From positions 1 to 20,454 of the IMG/VR virus record IMGVR_UViG_3300024239_000033: a DNA stretch of 20,454 bases. One strand, 5' to 3'. The notes beneath the pieces are model-generated. The model was not told the origin of the DNA. It was given only the letters and a program-made list of their open reading frames with translations, and did not search any database. The translations under genes were made by a program, and so were the position numbers. Below, in pieces: positions 5,588 through 17,147 of this stretch. How positions within the stretch are numbered: position 1 is the stretch's first letter; every line of letters begins with the position of its first letter. The stretch comes from a virus.

Positions 5588-5715
5588 AAAAATTTTTGTG
5601 CTTTGTTTTGGGGCATAAAAAAGAAACAAAAGAATGTCCAATTACAGGTGCTAAACAAATTATATGTTTGAGATGTTTTCCCCAAAAGCATTCATCTAGA
5701 ATGAGTTTTAATTAA
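5584..5715 (+). CDS. 43-residue cysteine miniprotein, DUF1660-like
   Basis: Too short for usual length cut-offs. ATG 5584 overlaps the previous stop (ATGA) and the frame ends at TAA 5713-5715. The protein starts MKKFLCFVLGHKKE and continues with CPITG and CLRCF, giving Cys6, His11, Cys18, Cys28 and Cys31. The order Cys-Leu-Gly-His-Lys, then CPxTG, then CxxC resembles the small prophage and actinophage proteins grouped as DUF1660, which look like tiny zinc-binding ribbons. Function unknown. Coupled translation with the oxygenase pair suggests it belongs to that unit. In the usual members the last CxxC is followed by Gly; here it is followed by FPQK. Confidence 0.65.
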   Translation: MKKFLCFVLGHKKETKECPITGAKQIICLRCFPQKHSSRMSFN

Positions 5716-5738
5716 GTATAAACTTAAAGAATAACATT

Positions 5739-5763
5739 AGAGTTTTGCAAAACTAAAAACTCT
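5739..5763. promoter_or_regulatory. Inverted repeat over the reductase promoter, possible operator
   Basis: AGAGTTTT (5739-5746) and AAAACTCT (5756-5763) form a perfect 8-bp inverted repeat, and the inner TTTTGCAAAA (5743-5752) is itself a palindrome. It covers the -35 region and touches the TG of the extended -10 of the reductase gene. No T tract follows, so it is more likely a protein-binding site than a terminator. It does not match the NrdR box that usually controls nrd genes. Confidence 0.4.
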
Positions 5764-5803: not shown

Positions 5804-7834
5804 ATGTCAGATTTTTTTAGTTTTCGTTTGTCTGAAGAATTCGTAAATGAGTATAAAACAAAAGAGGCGCCATTCGGTTTTTCAGACGCAGGTGGCAATT
5901 CATTGGGAGAGATTACATTTATTCGTACCTACTCTCGTATGAAAGAAGATGGAACTAAAGAAAGATGGTATGAGGTTTGTCGTCGTGTAATCGAGGGCAT
6001 GTATTCAGCACAAAAGAATCATGCAAAAGAAAACAGGCTACCGTGGAATGATTATAAGGCTCAATCATCAGCAAAAGAAGCATATGATCGTTTGTTTAAT
6101 TTAAAATGGACACCACCAGGAAGAGGATTGTGGTCTTTTGGCACTGCTCTGACAATGGAAAAGAAAAATTCTGCAGCACTACAAAATTGTGCCATGGTTT
6201 CTACAAAAGACATAGACAGAAATGATCCAGGACAACTATTTGGCTGGGTAATGGATGCCCTTATGATGGGCGTGGGCGTAGGCTTTGATACTTTGGGCGG
6301 GGAGAAAAATTTACCTATTTATGACCCTACGGAGCCAGCACAAATATATGAAATACCAGATACCCGTGAAGGTTGGGTTGAATCTGTTAGATTATTAATT
6401 AATTCATTTTTAAAGCCCAACATGTATATTCAAGAGTTTAATTATGATCTTATTAGGCCCCTAGGCGCCCCTATAAAGGGCTTTGGAGGCACTGCAAGCG
6501 GTCCTGCACCACTTATACAACTACATAAGCAGATTAGGTCTGTAATAGGCGGTAGGGCTGGAGAAACACTAGACTCAAGAGCAATCGTAGATATCGTAAA
6601 CCTTATTGGTACCTGCGTAGTGTCAGGAAATGTTAGACGATCTGCTACCCTGGCTTTAGGCGGAGCAGAAGACAAAGATTTTATGAATTTAAAAAATGCT
6701 GAAGTTTTTCCTGAGCGTAATTCTTTTGATCCAGAAAATCCAGGGTGGGCATGGATGTCTAATAACTCCATTTCTGCGACGGTAGGTACAAAGTATGAAG
6801 ACTATGTAGACCTAATAGTAAACAATGGAGAGCCAGGATTCATTTGGCTTGATGTGGCTAGAAACTATGGTCGTTTGGCTGATCCAAAGGATGGTAAAGA
6901 TTATCGTGTCATGGGCTTTAATCCATGTGCAGAGCAACCATTGGAGTCATACGAATTGTGTACTTTGGTTGAAGTGCACTTAAATCGTCATGAGTCTAAA
7001 GAAGACTTTTTACGTACATTAAAGTTTGCATATTTGTATGGCAAGACGGTAACGCTAATTCCTACACACTGGCAACAGACAAATGGAATCATGCAGCGTA
7101 ATCGTCGTATCGGAACATCTCTTACAGGTATTGCTTCATTCTCAGACAAATTTGGCTTGCCTGTTGTGAGAGAATGGATGGACGAAGGATACAAGACTAT
7201 CCGTAAATATGATCATTCATACTCAGAATGGTTATGTGTTCGTGAATCCATTAGAGTCACAACTGTTAAGCCATCAGGGTCTGTATCAATTCTTTCTGGC
7301 GCAACGCCAGGAGTTCACTGGGCACCAGGCGGAGATTATTTCTTAAGAGCAATTAGATTTGGAAATACTGACCCAATGATTCATTTATTTAAGGCTGCTG
7401 GATATAAGATAGAAGATGATCTTGTATCTGCGAATACAACTGTCGTATATTTCCCAGTGCATTCTGGACATCCAAGATCTGAAAAAGATGTTACCTTATT
7501 TGAAAAGATTGCGCTTGCTGCTACTGCTCAGAAATATTGGTCTGATAATGGCGTTTCTGTAACGCTTTCATTTGACAAAGAAACTGAAGCAAAGCATGTT
7601 GCGCCTGCGCTCCACATGTACGAAGGACAACTAAAGGCTGTTTCATTTTTACCAATGGGCAATACTGTCTATCCACAGCAGCCATATACTCAGATTACTG
7701 AAGAAGAGTATAATAGTTATATCGGCCAGATTAAAAAGATCGATTGGTCTGCTATTTATGATGGCGCCGAGAATTTGGAGGCACAGGGAGAGATGTATTG
7801 TACAACTGATTCTTGTGAAATAAAGATAGGATAA
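5804..7834 (+). CDS. nrdJ: Class II (adenosylcobalamin-dependent) ribonucleoside-triphosphate reductase
   Basis: A 676-residue cytoplasmic enzyme reducing ribonucleotides to deoxyribonucleotides with a B12-derived radical, supplying dNTPs for phage replication. All expected cysteines are present by comparison with the monomeric Lactobacillus leichmannii enzyme. Cys129 (LQNCAMVST) and Cys386 form the reducible pair, Cys375 in NPCAEQ is the thiyl-radical residue, and Glu377 is its partner. The spacing Cys375-Glu377-Cys386 equals the family's 408-410-419. The C-terminal CTTDSC (Cys666, Cys671) is the shuttle pair, with the same +5 spacing as 731/736. Length is slightly below the 739 residues of the reference enzyme, as in mycobacteriophage L5-type reductases. 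Being class II it needs neither oxygen nor a second subunit. It has its own promoter and ribosome site and is followed by two oxygenase-like genes after 2 bases. Confidence 0.92.
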   Translation: MSDFFSFRLSEEFVNEYKTKEAPFGFSDAGGNSLGEITFIRTYSRMKEDGTKERWYEVCRRVIEGMYSAQKNHAKENRLPWNDYKAQSSAKEAYDRLFNLKWTPPGRGLWSFGTALTMEKKNSAALQNCAMVSTKDIDRNDPGQLFGWVMDALMMGVGVGFDTLGGEKNLPIYDPTEPAQIYEIPDTREGWVESVRLLINSFLKPNMYIQEFNYDLIRPLGAPIKGFGGTASGPAPLIQLHKQIRSVIGGRAGETLDSRAIVDIVNLIGTCVVSGNVRRSATLALGGAEDKDFMNLKNAEVFPERNSFDPENPGWAWMSNNSISATVGTKYEDYVDLIVNNGEPGFIWLDVARNYGRLADPKDGKDYRVMGFNPCAEQPLESYELCTLVEVHLNRHESKEDFLRTLKFAYLYGKTVTLIPTHWQQTNGIMQRNRRIGTSLTGIASFSDKFGLPVVREWMDEGYKTIRKYDHSYSEWLCVRESIRVTTVKPSGSVSILSGATPGVHWAPGGDYFLRAIRFGNTDPMIHLFKAAGYKIEDDLVSANTTVVYFPVHSGHPRSEKDVTLFEKIALAATAQKYWSDNGVSVTLSFDKETEAKHVAPALHMYEGQLKAVSFLPMGNTVYPQQPYTQITEEEYNSYIGQIKKIDWSAIYDGAENLEAQGEMYCTTDSCEIKIG

Positions 7835-12670: not shown

Positions 12671-13039
12671 ATGAAAAAGAAAAATCCTAACCAAATTGGT
12701 AAGTCAAAGATTAAAGTCATCGATAAGATGTACGACTGGGGCATATATGTCTGGAAAAAACAAAATGGAAAGTGGTTTACAGACGGCCAGGGCAACGTAT
12801 TAAATATACCTTCCATGAAGGGCGATATATCAAAAATAGCAGAATTAAAGAAAGTGGCAGCCCATTATGGCGAGCCAGATGGAGAGGCTGTATTTTTTGC
12901 AGGGCTTAACAGAGTAAGTGATGAAGAGTATGCAGAGCAAAAACAAAGAATGGCAGAAGGACTTATTCCAAATATGAATGATCTTGGAGCCGTACATGCA
13001 GCACAGCAAACAATTAAAAAATATGGAGTTGAAGACTAA
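12671..13039 (+). CDS. Small protein at the start of the head operon, unknown function
   Basis: A 122-residue soluble, charged protein. ATG 12671 (MKKKNPNQIG) is preferred over an in-frame TTG at 12665 because the -10 element places the transcript start right at the ATG. Residues 20-45 (DWGIYVWKKQNGKWFTDGQGN) look like a small beta-hairpin module; residues 50-85 are mixed; the C-terminal half (EEYAEQKQRMAEGLI, then HAAQQTIKKYG) is helical. No enzyme motif is seen. Its TAA overlaps the portal ATG by one base, so it is made together with the portal and could be a head-assembly or packaging accessory. Not recognised as a terminase or scaffold. Confidence 0.6.
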   Translation: MKKKNPNQIGKSKIKVIDKMYDWGIYVWKKQNGKWFTDGQGNVLNIPSMKGDISKIAELKKVAAHYGEPDGEAVFFAGLNRVSDEEYAEQKQRMAEGLIPNMNDLGAVHAAQQTIKKYGVED

Positions 13040-14622
13040 TGTCAGATAGTCAAGAGTTTACTATAGGTGCTAGAATAGATGATCTTTTTAATCCATTAGA
13101 TCAATTTAAAAACGAAGATCCATTTAACAAACCATGGTCAGAACTAAAATCATATTCTGGAATGGACAATAATTTTAAAAGACGCACATCTAGGTTAGTA
13201 GAAAAGGCAATGCCTAATGATCCTACTCAGGGATATCTTGATAGTGCTAGGGCAGAGCAGCACGGTATTGGTGATGCAAAGTCAAAAGAAATTAATCCAG
13301 GAACCGTATATCGTAACGGGTATGGATTATTTGATGTAATTACTCCACCATGGAATGTTTACGAACTTGCAAATTATTATGATACATCTTTTGCTAATCA
13401 TGCTGCAATTGATGCAAAGGTAGAAAACATTGTTGGCCTAGGGTATGACTTTGAAGTTTCTCCAAGTACAATGCTTCGTTTAGAATCTAATAAAGATTCT
13501 GGGCAGGTAGAAAGAGCAAGGAATAGAATTGAACGTGCAAAAATTGAAATGCACGAGTGGATAGAATCATTAAATGATGATGATTCTTTTACAACAACAA
13601 TGATGAAGGTTTATACAGATGTTCAGGCAGTTGGAAATGGATATCTTGAAATAGGAAGAACTACTCGTGGTGAGATAGGATATATTGGACATATACCAGC
13701 AACTACAATGCGTGTTCGTAGACTACGTGATGGATATGTTCAAATTATAGGACAAAAGGTTGTTTATTTTAGAAATTTTGGAGCAAAGAATGCTAATCCA
13801 GTTACCTCTGATCCAAGACCTAATGAAATCATACACTTTAAACAGTATTCGCCTTTAAATACTTTTTATGGTGTTCCAGATATAATGTCGGCAATAAACT
13901 CGCTCCATGGAGACCAGTTAGCGTCACAATATAATATTGACTACTTTAGCAATAAGGCTGTCCCTCGTTATGTTGTGACACTAAAGGGTGCACGACTTTC
14001 TGCAGATGCCGAAGATAAGATGTTTAGATTTTTGCAAACGGGACTCAAAGGACAATCTCATAGAACTCTATATATTCCTCTTCCAGGAGATAGCGATACA
14101 AACAAAGTTGACTTTAAGATGGAGCCAATTGAAAATGGAGTACAAGAGGGATCCTTTGAAAAGTATCGTAAGCAAAATAGAGATGATATTTTAATAGCAC
14201 ATCAAGTTCCGTTGTCAAAGATAGGTGGAGGAGATTCTGGGGCTATTGCAGCAGCATTGGCCCAAGATCGCACCTTTAAAGAGCAGGTAGCACGTCCAGC
14301 CCAAAAAGAATTAGAAAAAATATTAAATAAGATTGTTAAAGAAAAAACAGATGTACTTGTTTTAAAGTTTAAAGAACTCACCCTGACCGATGAAATAGCA
14401 CAATCTCAAATTTTGGAAAGATATGTTAAGACTCAAGTAATGCTTCCAAATGAGGCTAGATCAATCTTGGGTCTTCCACAAAGGGAGGGGGGAGATGAGC
14501 CTTTCCAGCCTAAGCCAGATGTAGAGAGGGCAAGGGACGGAGAACGAACGAATAATCAGTCCGATGGGGCAGCCACAATTAGTGGAAGAAACCCAAAGGG
14601 CGAGGGTAGATCTACTCCATAG
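13039..14622 (+). CDS. Portal protein (HK97/PBSX type)
   Basis: A 527-residue protein forming the dodecameric DNA entry ring at one capsid vertex. The start ATG 13039 overlaps the previous stop (TAATG). Features typical of PBSX-like portals are visible: TPPWNVYELANYYDTSFANHAAIDAKV in the wing (around residues 98-125), VGNGYLEIGRTTRGEIGYI (near 198-216), NEIIHFKQYSPLNTFYGVPDI (near 262-282), and the stem/crown region with HQVPLSKIGGGDSGAIA followed by a long C-terminal helix with the motif LTLTDEIAQSQI. The C-terminal 40 residues are disordered-looking and charged. Length is usual for the family. Protease and capsid genes follow in the standard order. Confidence 0.88.
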   Translation: MSDSQEFTIGARIDDLFNPLDQFKNEDPFNKPWSELKSYSGMDNNFKRRTSRLVEKAMPNDPTQGYLDSARAEQHGIGDAKSKEINPGTVYRNGYGLFDVITPPWNVYELANYYDTSFANHAAIDAKVENIVGLGYDFEVSPSTMLRLESNKDSGQVERARNRIERAKIEMHEWIESLNDDDSFTTTMMKVYTDVQAVGNGYLEIGRTTRGEIGYIGHIPATTMRVRRLRDGYVQIIGQKVVYFRNFGAKNANPVTSDPRPNEIIHFKQYSPLNTFYGVPDIMSAINSLHGDQLASQYNIDYFSNKAVPRYVVTLKGARLSADAEDKMFRFLQTGLKGQSHRTLYIPLPGDSDTNKVDFKMEPIENGVQEGSFEKYRKQNRDDILIAHQVPLSKIGGGDSGAIAAALAQDRTFKEQVARPAQKELEKILNKIVKEKTDVLVLKFKELTLTDEIAQSQILERYVKTQVMLPNEARSILGLPQREGGDEPFQPKPDVERARDGERTNNQSDGAATISGRNPKGEGRSTP

Positions 14623-14665
14623 TTATCCACAAGTTTATTCACAGTTTATTAACATTTGTGTAAAA
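14623..14665. promoter_or_regulatory. Cluster of four DnaA-box-like 9-mers
   Basis: In the 66-base gap between portal and protease genes lie TTATCCACA (14623-14631, +), TTATTCACA (14635-14643, +), TTATTAACA (14646-14654, +, one mismatch) and TTTTACACA on the minus strand (14657-14665). The first, second and fourth match the DnaA-box consensus TTWTNCACA exactly, and the first equals the strong E. coli box. Starts are spaced 12, 11 and 11 bases, about one helical turn. They run into the promoter of the protease gene. Binding by host DnaA is inference; a phage repressor recognising the same repeat is an alternative. Confidence 0.6.
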
Positions 14666-14678
14666 AAGGCTCTATAAT
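14649..14678 (+). promoter_or_regulatory. Promoter of the protease/capsid unit, leaderless or near-leaderless
   Basis: TTAACA (14649-14654, five of six to the -35 consensus) and TATAAT (14673-14678, perfect -10) are 18 bases apart. ATG 14689 lies 10 bases past the -10 with no Shine-Dalgarno. The -35 lies inside the third DnaA-like 9-mer, so any protein bound to that array would be expected to affect this promoter. Confidence 0.65.
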
Positions 14679-14688
14679 ATATACTAGT

Positions 14689-15996
14689 ATGACTATATCT
14701 AAGGCCCATTGGGATACCGATGGCGAATCAGTAAGGCTTTCCCTTCCATTTGCGAAGGTTGATAAGGAGAGACGTATCGTCTCAGGTTTTGCGTCACTTG
14801 ATAACGTTGACAAGCAGGGAGATATAGTAACAGCAGAGGCTTCAATGAAAGCCTTTTCTGCTTTCCGTGGAAATATTCGTGAAATGCACCAGCCATCTGC
14901 TGTAGGCAAAATGGTTTCTTTTAAACAAGATCGTTATTTTGATACAGAAACTAAAAAGTTTTATAATGGCGTTTTTGTTTCAGCATATGTTTCAAAGGGT
15001 GCACAAGATGCATGGGAAAAAGTTTTGGATGGCACATACACAGGATTTTCTATTGGCGGTAGAATGAATAAGTGGGATGACGGATATGATGAGAAATCAG
15101 ATTCCACAATTAGAATTATTAAAGATTATGATCTTGTTGAGTTGAGTCTTGTAGATTCCCCAGCAAATCAATTTGCAAATATTATGCAAGTAGAAAAGGT
15201 AGATGGCAATGTTGTCGTAAAAGGACAAGATGTCGAATTAGAAAATGTTTTTTATGATGCAGAATCTGGAATCGTAATGGTTTCAGATCAAGAAACAGTT
15301 GCAAGTCCAGTTACTGGAAATGAAATGAAAAATATAGGTTTCGTTGAAAAAGAAGACAACGAAAAAATGGATATAGTCAAATTCTTAGTAGATAGTGCTA
15401 AAGGCATTAATACTTCTAAGATAACGAAGGAGGTAAATCCTATGACAGAAGAAACAGCAGTTGTTGAAGAAACAACAGAAGTTACAAAGTCAGAAGAAAT
15501 CGCTCCAGAGGCAGATGCCGTAGTTGAGGCTCCTGTTGCAGAAGAAGTTGCTGAAAAGTCTGATGAGACTCCAGCAGCAGAAGAAGTTGCCAAGGCAGAA
15601 GAAACTGTTGAGGCTCCTGCAGTAGAAGTTACTACAGAAGTATCTAAGTCAGATGAAGCAATTGTTGACGCAGTTGCTGAAATCAAGAACACAATTACAT
15701 CAGCCTTTAGCGATCTAGTTGAAACTGTTAAGTCTTTGCAGGCAGAAGTAGAAATGCTTAAGTCTTCAAAGGTTGATACAGACGCAGTAAAAAGTTCTCT
15801 TGAAGCAGTCGCCAAAGACATTGCTGCTACAACAGAACAAGTTAATAAGTTTGGAAAGCGTGTTGACGCAGTAGAAGCAGATACAGCATTCCGAAAGTCT
15901 GGCGATCTAGGCGAGATCGTGCAGGAGCAACCAGAAATGGTTGAAAAATCCCTATGGGGCGGACGTTTCCTCAAAACAGCCGACTTATTTAATTAA
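14689..15996 (+). CDS. Prohead protease with C-terminal scaffold-like domain
   Basis: 435 residues from ATG 14689; an in-frame TTG at 14656 would start upstream of the -10 element and is rejected. Residues 1-165 resemble HK97/XkdF-type prohead serine proteases: VSGFASLDNVDKQGDIV, then REMHQPSAVGK with candidate catalytic His67, GFSIGGRM, and VELSLVDSPANQ with candidate Ser153. The enzyme would cleave scaffold and capsid parts during head maturation. After a linker, residues 252-320 are an acidic Ala/Glu/Val-rich region with repeated (E/V)APA(V/E)E patterns, and about 325-400 form a coiled coil (IKNTITSAFSDLVETVKSL, then AEVEMLK). This is the layout of a protease-scaffold fusion. A strong internal start at 15442 could release the scaffold separately. 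The capsid gene follows after 23 bases. Confidence 0.8.
   Translation: MTISKAHWDTDGESVRLSLPFAKVDKERRIVSGFASLDNVDKQGDIVTAEASMKAFSAFRGNIREMHQPSAVGKMVSFKQDRYFDTETKKFYNGVFVSAYVSKGAQDAWEKVLDGTYTGFSIGGRMNKWDDGYDEKSDSTIRIIKDYDLVELSLVDSPANQFANIMQVEKVDGNVVVKGQDVELENVFYDAESGIVMVSDQETVASPVTGNEMKNIGFVEKEDNEKMDIVKFLVDSAKGINTSKITKEVNPMTEETAVVEETTEVTKSEEIAPEADAVVEAPVAEEVAEKSDETPAAEEVAKAEETVEAPAVEVTTEVSKSDEAIVDAVAEIKNTITSAFSDLVETVKSLQAEVEMLKSSKVDTDAVKSSLEAVAKDIAATTEQVNKFGKRVDAVEADTAFRKSGDLGEIVQEQPEMVEKSLWGGRFLKTADLFN
15427..15444 (+). promoter_or_regulatory. Internal Shine-Dalgarno and start inside the protease gene
   Basis: AAGGAGG (15427-15433) stands 8 bases before an in-frame ATG (15442-15444) in the middle of the protease gene. 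It is as strong as the sites of the capsid and the gene after it, whereas the upstream protease start has none. It encodes the residues TKEVNP, so it is not explained by a conserved protein motif. Confidence 0.7.
15442..15996 (+). CDS. Nested in-frame scaffolding protein (proposed)
   Basis: A 184-residue product starting MTEETAVVEETTEV, in the same frame and with the same stop as the protease gene. It contains only the acidic region and the coiled coil, the composition expected of a phage scaffold: highly charged, helical, no catalytic residues. The arrangement would copy the lambda C/Nu3 system, where the scaffold is made from an internal start of the protease gene and is needed in many more copies than the protease. 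The support is the internal ribosome site and the domain break; no direct proof of translation exists. Confidence 0.6.
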   Translation: MTEETAVVEETTEVTKSEEIAPEADAVVEAPVAEEVAEKSDETPAAEEVAKAEETVEAPAVEVTTEVSKSDEAIVDAVAEIKNTITSAFSDLVETVKSLQAEVEMLKSSKVDTDAVKSSLEAVAKDIAATTEQVNKFGKRVDAVEADTAFRKSGDLGEIVQEQPEMVEKSLWGGRFLKTADLFN

Positions 15997-16019
15997 GTAA
16001 TCACTTAGGAGGTGACAAT

Positions 16020-17147
16020 ATGTCGGAAGAGATTAAGAAAAACCAGCCAGGAGAATCTGGCGAACTAGGCGGAACCGCACCTGGTCTATACCAGGGACAA
16101 GGCGCTTTCGCTTCAGGTGGTATTGGTGGTGTTACAGATCCAGGTGCAGATACACTTGGAAACATCCCTAATGCGAACTTTGGTGTTACATCTGGTCCAA
16201 ATGCCGTAAATCCTTCGGGTGATGCTGCAAGCGGAATCCTACGCCCTGAACAGGCACGTCGTTTTATTGACTACGTTTGGGATGCTACCGTTCTCGCCCA
16301 AGATGGTCGTCGTGTGACGATGAGAGCAAACACTATGGAACTTGAGAAAGTTAACGTTGGTGAGCGTGTTATCCGTGCTGCTTCACAAGCACTCGGTGAC
16401 TACACAAACACTGGCGCTACCTTCTCTAAGGTAGAACTTACAACCAAGAAACTACGTCTTGATTGGGAAGTATCTGCAGAAGCACTAGAAGACAATGTCG
16501 AGGGGGCTGCATTAGAAGATCATCTCGTACGCTTGATGACAAATGCATTCGCTAACGATATTGAAGATCTTGCGATCAATGGTGACGGTACAACTGCACC
16601 ATTCTTGTCCATCATGGACGGCTTCGTAAAGAAGGAAACAGCAGGCAACTCTCATGAAGCAGTCGTTACTGTTGCTGATAATGCATGGACTCCAGAGGTA
16701 ATGCAGGATATTATCCTTGCAATGCCACGTAAGTATCGTGCAATCAAGAACAACCTTAAGTTCTACGCAGGTACAGATGCCTTCGCAGGTATCGTAAAGA
16801 ATAACGGAACACTTGCTGATGCAGTTGCTGAAGCATTCAGTGGCCGTGTTTCTGGTACCTCTGCAAACCGTCAAGCATACCTTGATGGTGGAGCACAGAC
16901 ATTCGGTGGAGCACGTACAACACGTGTTCTAGGTATCGATGTACAAGAAGTTCCTTACTATCCAGATGGATTTGTCGATTTGACATTCCCTCAGAACCGT
17001 GTATGGGGCTTCCAGCGTGATATCGTTGTAAACCGTGAATACGTAGCGAAGAAGGACACAATTGAATACACTGTATTCGTCCGCTTCGGTATTCAATGGG
17101 AAGAAGAAGACGCTATTGCATACGCTGATGCTGCTTCAGATTCATAA
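16020..17147 (+). CDS. Major capsid protein (HK97 fold)
   Basis: A 375-residue protein behind the strongest ribosome site of the window (TTAGGAGGTGA, 16005-16015). The Gly/Pro-rich N-terminal 75 residues look like a flexible arm. The fold shows HK97-type features: RRFIDYVWDATVLAQDGRRV (N-terminal helix), KKLRLDWEVSAEALEDNV followed by a long helix (LVRLMTNAFANDIEDLAING, the spine helix and P domain), MQDIILAMPRKYRAIKNNLKFY (A domain helix), and a C-terminal beta hairpin with NREYVAKKDTIEYTVFVRFGI. It assembles hundreds of copies into the head shell. Codon choice differs from neighbours: many C-ending codons (ttc, tac, gac, atc) in an otherwise A/T-ending window, typical of the most highly expressed gene. 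A terminator follows. Confidence 0.92.
   Translation: MSEEIKKNQPGESGELGGTAPGLYQGQGAFASGGIGGVTDPGADTLGNIPNANFGVTSGPNAVNPSGDAASGILRPEQARRFIDYVWDATVLAQDGRRVTMRANTMELEKVNVGERVIRAASQALGDYTNTGATFSKVELTTKKLRLDWEVSAEALEDNVEGAALEDHLVRLMTNAFANDIEDLAINGDGTTAPFLSIMDGFVKKETAGNSHEAVVTVADNAWTPEVMQDIILAMPRKYRAIKNNLKFYAGTDAFAGIVKNNGTLADAVAEAFSGRVSGTSANRQAYLDGGAQTFGGARTTRVLGIDVQEVPYYPDGFVDLTFPQNRVWGFQRDIVVNREYVAKKDTIEYTVFVRFGIQWEEEDAIAYADAASDS

Follow-up and report, generated by a model that had tools for sequence, protein, structure and literature searches.

A conserved array of DnaA-type boxes overlaps the head-gene promoter of a virus related to actinophages and may place it under host DnaA control

DnaA-type boxes on the protease promoter

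The window analyzed here, a stretch of viral DNA of 20,454 nucleotides (IMG/VR record IMGVR_UViG_3300024239_000033), carries on its plus strand a portal protein gene (13039-14622; phrog_12, E 5.6e-54), a head maturation protease gene (14689-15996; phrog_9427, E 1.8e-112) and a capsid gene encoding a virion structural or major head protein (16020-17147; phrog_1623, E 3.5e-73; phrog_10, E 3.8e-8). A ribonucleotide reductase gene (5804-7834; phrog_367, E 3.1e-142) precedes the head genes by a few genes. The portal and protease genes are separated by a 66-bp gap (14623-14688) that runs from the portal stop TAG to the protease ATG, and 43 bp of this gap (14623-14665) are occupied by an array of four 9-mers resembling DnaA boxes.

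Rescanning recovered the four sites described in the initial annotation, three of them exact matches to TTWTNCACA and one with a single mismatch, with start-to-start distances of 12, 11 and 11 bp, each close to one turn of the helix. Box 1 (TTATCCACA, 14623-14631) and box 2 (TTATTCACA, 14635-14643, 12 bp from box 1) are exact matches on the plus strand, box 3 (TTATTAACA, 14646-14654, plus strand) carries the mismatch, and box 4 (TTTTACACA, 14657-14665, minus strand) is exact and inverted. A mechanical scan of positions 12700-16100 returned 17 promoter-like sites (9.2 expected), among which the plus-strand site TTAACA-18-TATAAT (14649-14678) ranked joint first with 11 of 12 consensus bases, and therefore the -35 hexamer TTAACA (14649-14654) falls inside box 3. 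Box 4 lies within the 18-bp spacer leading to the -10 hexamer TATAAT (14673-14678); both hexamers were scored as consensus matches, and the -10 is kept in relatives. The array thus does run into the -35 of the protease/capsid promoter as first described, and the adjoining stretch 14661-14700 is AT-rich, if mildly so (22.5% GC vs 36.7% across the window).

Boxes with up to one mismatch occur in the window at chance frequency (67 found vs 68.0 expected from shuffles, no over-representation), so a single box carries little weight on its own. A set of three exact boxes inside 43 bp arose in 0 of 2000 simulated windows at each of Markov orders 1, 2 and 3, and two exact boxes in 37, 22 and 9 of 2000 at the respective orders; random clusters as dense as the three-box cluster, which the initial annotation had proposed looking for, never appeared. 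Tandem pairs, defined as two same-strand boxes no more than 6 bp apart, were present in all 12 large relatives, at 23 places in total, while the reversed pattern gave 0, and the full sequences of nine relatives held 19 pairs vs 0.0 expected. Same-strand spacings of up to 60 bp in these nine (n=22) were 12 bp fifteen times, 11 bp four times and another value three times. The form TTATCCACA was found in 60 copies vs 13.6 expected, and the seven remaining TTWTNCACA forms at 0.4 to 1.7 times expectation. As a class the motif was not enriched genome-wide in relatives (13-24 boxes per genome vs 18-23 expected). The suggested comparison of overall TTWTNCACA density with random expectation therefore gave no excess, in the window or in the relatives' genomes; the clustering alone exceeds chance, as is characteristic of a DnaA-box cluster.

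Conservation and exchange of the array in related phages

The array is real and conserved. Among 80 loci fetched by protease similarity, representing 46 distinct upstream regions, 60 had one or more exact forward boxes no farther than 75 nt from the ATG, 51 had two and 20 had none. When later searches were included, 73 distinct regions were obtained, 44 box-bearing (36 with two boxes, 8 with one) and 29 box-less; membership of this set required a TATA element as well as the start ATGACTATATC, and some of its loci had been fetched by a box pattern, so its fractions are not free of bias. The exact inverted box 4 is kept in 40 of the 44 box-bearing regions (37 TTTTACACA, 2 TTTTTCACA and 1 TTTTGCACA), varying at position 5. 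The box 1 slot holds TTATCCACA, TTTTCCACA or TTATACACA together with a few forms altered at position 1, and slot 3 holds an exact box in 5 of 44.

Relative to the -10, exact boxes start at -50/-49, -40 to -36 and -28/-26. Five of the 44 box-bearing regions (L058, L084, L188, L225 and L042) have their exact boxes one slot lower, a shift of ~11 bp that preserves the phase. The aligned gap thus shows conservation in related phages, with boxes kept in many of them, DnaA-type degeneracy and a helical register with the promoter, and such a fixed register is a mark of a DnaA-regulated promoter of the nrdAB kind. The tandem pair stands at the protease promoter in 10 of the 12 large relatives and only elsewhere in the other two, G010 and G012; G010 has one exact forward box at its protease promoter.

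Substitutions were analyzed in 34 distinct sequences, chosen on slot 3 and the -10 alone and blind to boxes 1 and 2; as these rows are related, their counts do not represent independent events. Box 1 was invariant at positions 2, 4, 7, 8 and 9; its position 3 was A or T, its position 5 was C, A or T, its position 6 was A once, and its position 1 departed from T in 7 rows. Box 2 was invariant at positions 1, 2, 4, 7, 8 and 9, with T once at position 3, A once at position 6 and all four bases at position 5. Spacer and flanking columns varied freely. Variation in boxes 1 and 2 therefore follows the degeneracy of TTWTNCACA, save at box 1 position 1 (seven rows) and at position 6 (one row), and with these same two exceptions it is confined to positions where DnaA tolerates change. 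In most rows position 6 of box 3 is A, which could be explained by this slot also serving as the -35. One row (L022, ATG at 1574) has three tandem boxes that all read TTATNAACA, giving the impression of a concerted change at position 6.

The ATG of the protease gene follows TATAAT by 10 nt in 71 of the 73 distinct upstream regions and by 9 nt in 2, and TATAAT is kept in 73 of 73, a retention that belongs to a set selected for a TATA element. The protease start matches a Shine-Dalgarno sequence at only 2 of 6 bases, compared with 4-6 at 13 of the 14 further starts examined and 3 at the remaining one. The short distance past TATAAT together with the missing Shine-Dalgarno sequence predicts a leaderless protease mRNA.

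Loss of the boxes from relatives that keep the promoter, named in the initial annotation as evidence against a functional array, was found in a minority. Boxes are absent from 20 of the 80 protease-similarity loci, and box-less relatives retain the -10 and its spacing to the ATG; the remaining 60 loci keep at least one box. The array is therefore dispensable or exchangeable. In its place, a palindrome with the sequence TCTCA-N5-YGAGA spans the portal stop and the -35 region in 24 of the 29 distinct regions without boxes and in 0 of the 44 that have them. It lies just upstream of the protease ATG in L024, L171, L193, L212, L230 and others, its left arm doubles as coding sequence for the portal C-terminus, and it may be another regulator's operator. 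A protease tree of 83 rows (50 box, 25 palindrome, 6 other, 1 degenerate, 1 outgroup) requires no fewer than 6 changes of the box label vs a mean of 25.6 in shuffles, which indicates that the array was exchanged, lost or gained several times, in a clustered fashion.

Tandem boxes at other phage loci and beside host dnaA

Further pairs in the relatives lie in the leader regions of operons of small genes or adjoin a noncoding stretch that contains GTGGAG repeats. According to a simple ORF caller, 29 of the 60 TTATCCACA copies lie outside called ORFs in genomes that are 93-95% coding. Searching 17 records initially taken for box-less, several of them short fragments, gave pair matches in three: G088, which is box-bearing at the protease promoter (L221), and G074 (three pairs) and G012 (one pair), which are box-less at that promoter and carry their pairs elsewhere. 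In nine named Streptomyces and Rhodococcus relatives, the 150 nt preceding the protease gene contained no box. Three of these nine, all Streptomyces phages, carry one pair each at 7 to 11 kb from the right end, inside a stretch of >1.2 kb without annotated genes in Samisti12 (L280) and Patelgo (L281) and at the edge of a small annotated ORF in BillNye (L282). This region is a candidate origin or control region. The pairs in the three phages are tandem TTATCCACA, and extra inverted TGTGGATAA copies are present in Samisti12 and BillNye.

The noncoding locus with GTGGAG repeats every 10 bp was seen in 10 of the 12 large relatives (for example L288, at about 5677-5760 of G005, L286 and L287). Exact DnaA boxes lie 46-59 bp upstream of the repeats in 5 of the 9 checked, and by eye the locus resembles the region upstream of mraZ in the metagenome-assembled genome (MAG) G013 (L417). 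MraZ itself was encoded in 0 of the 12 large relatives.

Across viral contigs more broadly, the strict tandem pair was found in at least 120 stretches, with 8 in all for the reversed control. Tandem DnaA boxes are therefore widespread in viral contigs and the pair itself is not new; the unusual part is its conserved place on a capsid promoter. Among the titles and opening lines of abstracts examined, all from open-licence papers, none was found to describe DnaA boxes at a phage head-gene promoter.

Named relatives of the protease come mostly from actinophages (Streptomyces in 127 of 140, Rhodococcus in 9 of 140). One contig of a GTDB MAG, from an Actinomycetota bacterium, encodes a portal protein 79% identical to that of the phage, and the presumed host family was assigned from this one contig. 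There was no second match to the phage among 296 genomes of that MAG's order, so the contig is possibly misbinned. Its own portal-protease gap holds degenerate boxes only. The same MAG has two tandem copies of TTATCCACA, 12 bp apart, upstream of dnaA, and its DnaA carries GGRDHTTVMHADRKI, which we take to resemble the DnaA signature.

Of 61 genomes in the presumed host family, 26 contain the strict tandem pair, at 28 places compared with 0 for the reversed control, and the other 35 lack it. All 12 pair loci examined in this family adjoin dnaA within ~90 bp, 7 upstream and 5 downstream. With a looser pair pattern, 20 of 24 genomes of the family matched, with two control matches. The host copies resemble those of the phage in being tandem TTATCCACA on the same strand, 10-12 bp apart, and differ in being chromosomal and beside dnaA, whereas the phage array has four boxes and more sequence variants. 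For the presumed host, the same motif in the same arrangement thus sits in the dnaA region, where a DnaA-box cluster is expected.

Regulation by host DnaA and alternative readings

Taken together, these results make it probable that host DnaA binds and regulates the head-gene promoter of this actinophage, whatever the sign of the regulation. Among the functions put forward in the initial annotation, it is plausible both that host DnaA controls the capsid promoter and that the phage boxes titrate DnaA: the boxes are of DnaA type, conserved, in register with the promoter and like the pair beside host dnaA. The third proposed function, a replication origin, was not supported.

The main alternative is a phage regulator unrelated to DnaA that binds the repeats and controls several phage promoters, as the initial annotation had also considered. 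The repeats recur at several phage loci, the palindrome that replaces the boxes in other lineages (24 of 29 box-less regions) indicates that regulators at this promoter do change, and the genomes are rich in unknown small genes and encode WhiB in 11 of the 12 large relatives (10 above the cut-off). We nevertheless judge this reading unlikely: in degenerate positions, orientation and spacing the motif agrees with DnaA boxes and with the host's dnaA-adjacent pair, which weakens the reading while leaving it a rival. DnaA domain IV (Bac_DnaA_C, PF08299) was encoded above the cut-off in 0 of the 12 large relatives, with one weak match (E 0.02, G010), which counts against a phage reader of this type and led us to reject a phage-encoded DnaA system.

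A still weaker candidate reading is that the array forms all or part of a phage replication origin to which host DnaA is recruited. Tandem boxes next to AT-rich DNA look origin-like, a predicted origin with DnaA boxes has been described in a Pseudomonas phage (PMC11512268), and phage lambda uses DnaA near its origin. Cumulative GC skew argues against such a role, since its extremes lay at least 11 kb from the array in the six of nine relatives that could be judged (G001-G005 and G010), the array being <2 kb from the contig end in G007, G008 and G009. The array also overlaps a promoter inside the head operon and is missing from 20 of 80 relatives, and pairs are present at several loci, the long noncoding regions among them being better origin candidates. 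An origin at the array was accordingly considered very unlikely. Chance clustering preserved by shared ancestry, with functionless boxes, would agree with the chance frequency of one-mismatch boxes in the window and the 29 of 73 regions that have no box, and was rejected as scarcely credible in view of the simulations, the spacing spectrum, the tandem pairs in relatives (23 vs 0 reversed) and the substitution pattern.

How host DnaA might act can be considered by comparison with Escherichia coli nrdAB, where DnaA activates or represses by occupancy and nucleotide state, with activation at low occupancy and repression by high ATP-DnaA, presumably through exclusion of RNA polymerase (PMC8203912). 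The likeness lies in high-affinity boxes by a promoter and in the occupancy scheme, which fits the phage array because its weaker boxes are on the -35 and spacer and its stronger boxes are upstream. The difference is that nrdAB is a host nucleotide-reduction gene, whereas the phage array precedes head genes and places two boxes on the -35 and spacer themselves. In phage lambda, DnaA stimulates transcription at ori-lambda (PMC8203912), and box-like sites located downstream of pO are protected by it (PMC3985674), a case in which a phage employs host DnaA at promoters of its own; there DnaA serves replication, and here the boxes lie on a capsid-maturation promoter. Multicopy DNA carrying additional boxes has been described to titrate DnaA and to derepress a promoter under DnaA control (PMC5835720). 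In the phage, the difference from such initiator titration would be that phage DNA is the proposed signal to its own head genes.

Regulation by host DnaA could then proceed as follows. DnaA would first occupy the strong upstream boxes 1 and 2, centered at about -59 and -47 relative to the expected start site; as occupancy rises, it would also fill the weaker boxes that cover the -35 and spacer, blocking RNA polymerase. As phage DNA multiplies, the few paired-box sites per genome would titrate DnaA and release the promoter, so that the head genes switch on after replication begins. The occupancy scheme of nrdAB and titration by multicopy boxes together lead us to favor gating relieved by phage replication; DnaA on boxes 1 and 2 could instead be an activator, and both signs are seen at E. 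coli nrdAB.

A wider proposal, which we regard as possible and rather doubtful, is that host DnaA serves as a copy-number clock, the head promoter staying shut until phage genomes titrate DnaA and host oriC being starved of it. With DnaA boxes next to MraZ-operator-like GTGGAG repeats, these phages may tap or decoy two host cell-cycle regulators. The general idea that such phages make use of host DnaA could be tested in culture, because three of the nine named relatives carry the tandem pair elsewhere in their genomes.

For tailed phages, control of when late genes are expressed is generally attributed to phage-encoded activators, sigma factors or antiterminators. If regulation by host DnaA is correct, a conserved host-DnaA element on a capsid promoter would couple the making of heads directly to how far host or phage replication has progressed, and would do so in relatives of Actinomycetota-infecting phages.
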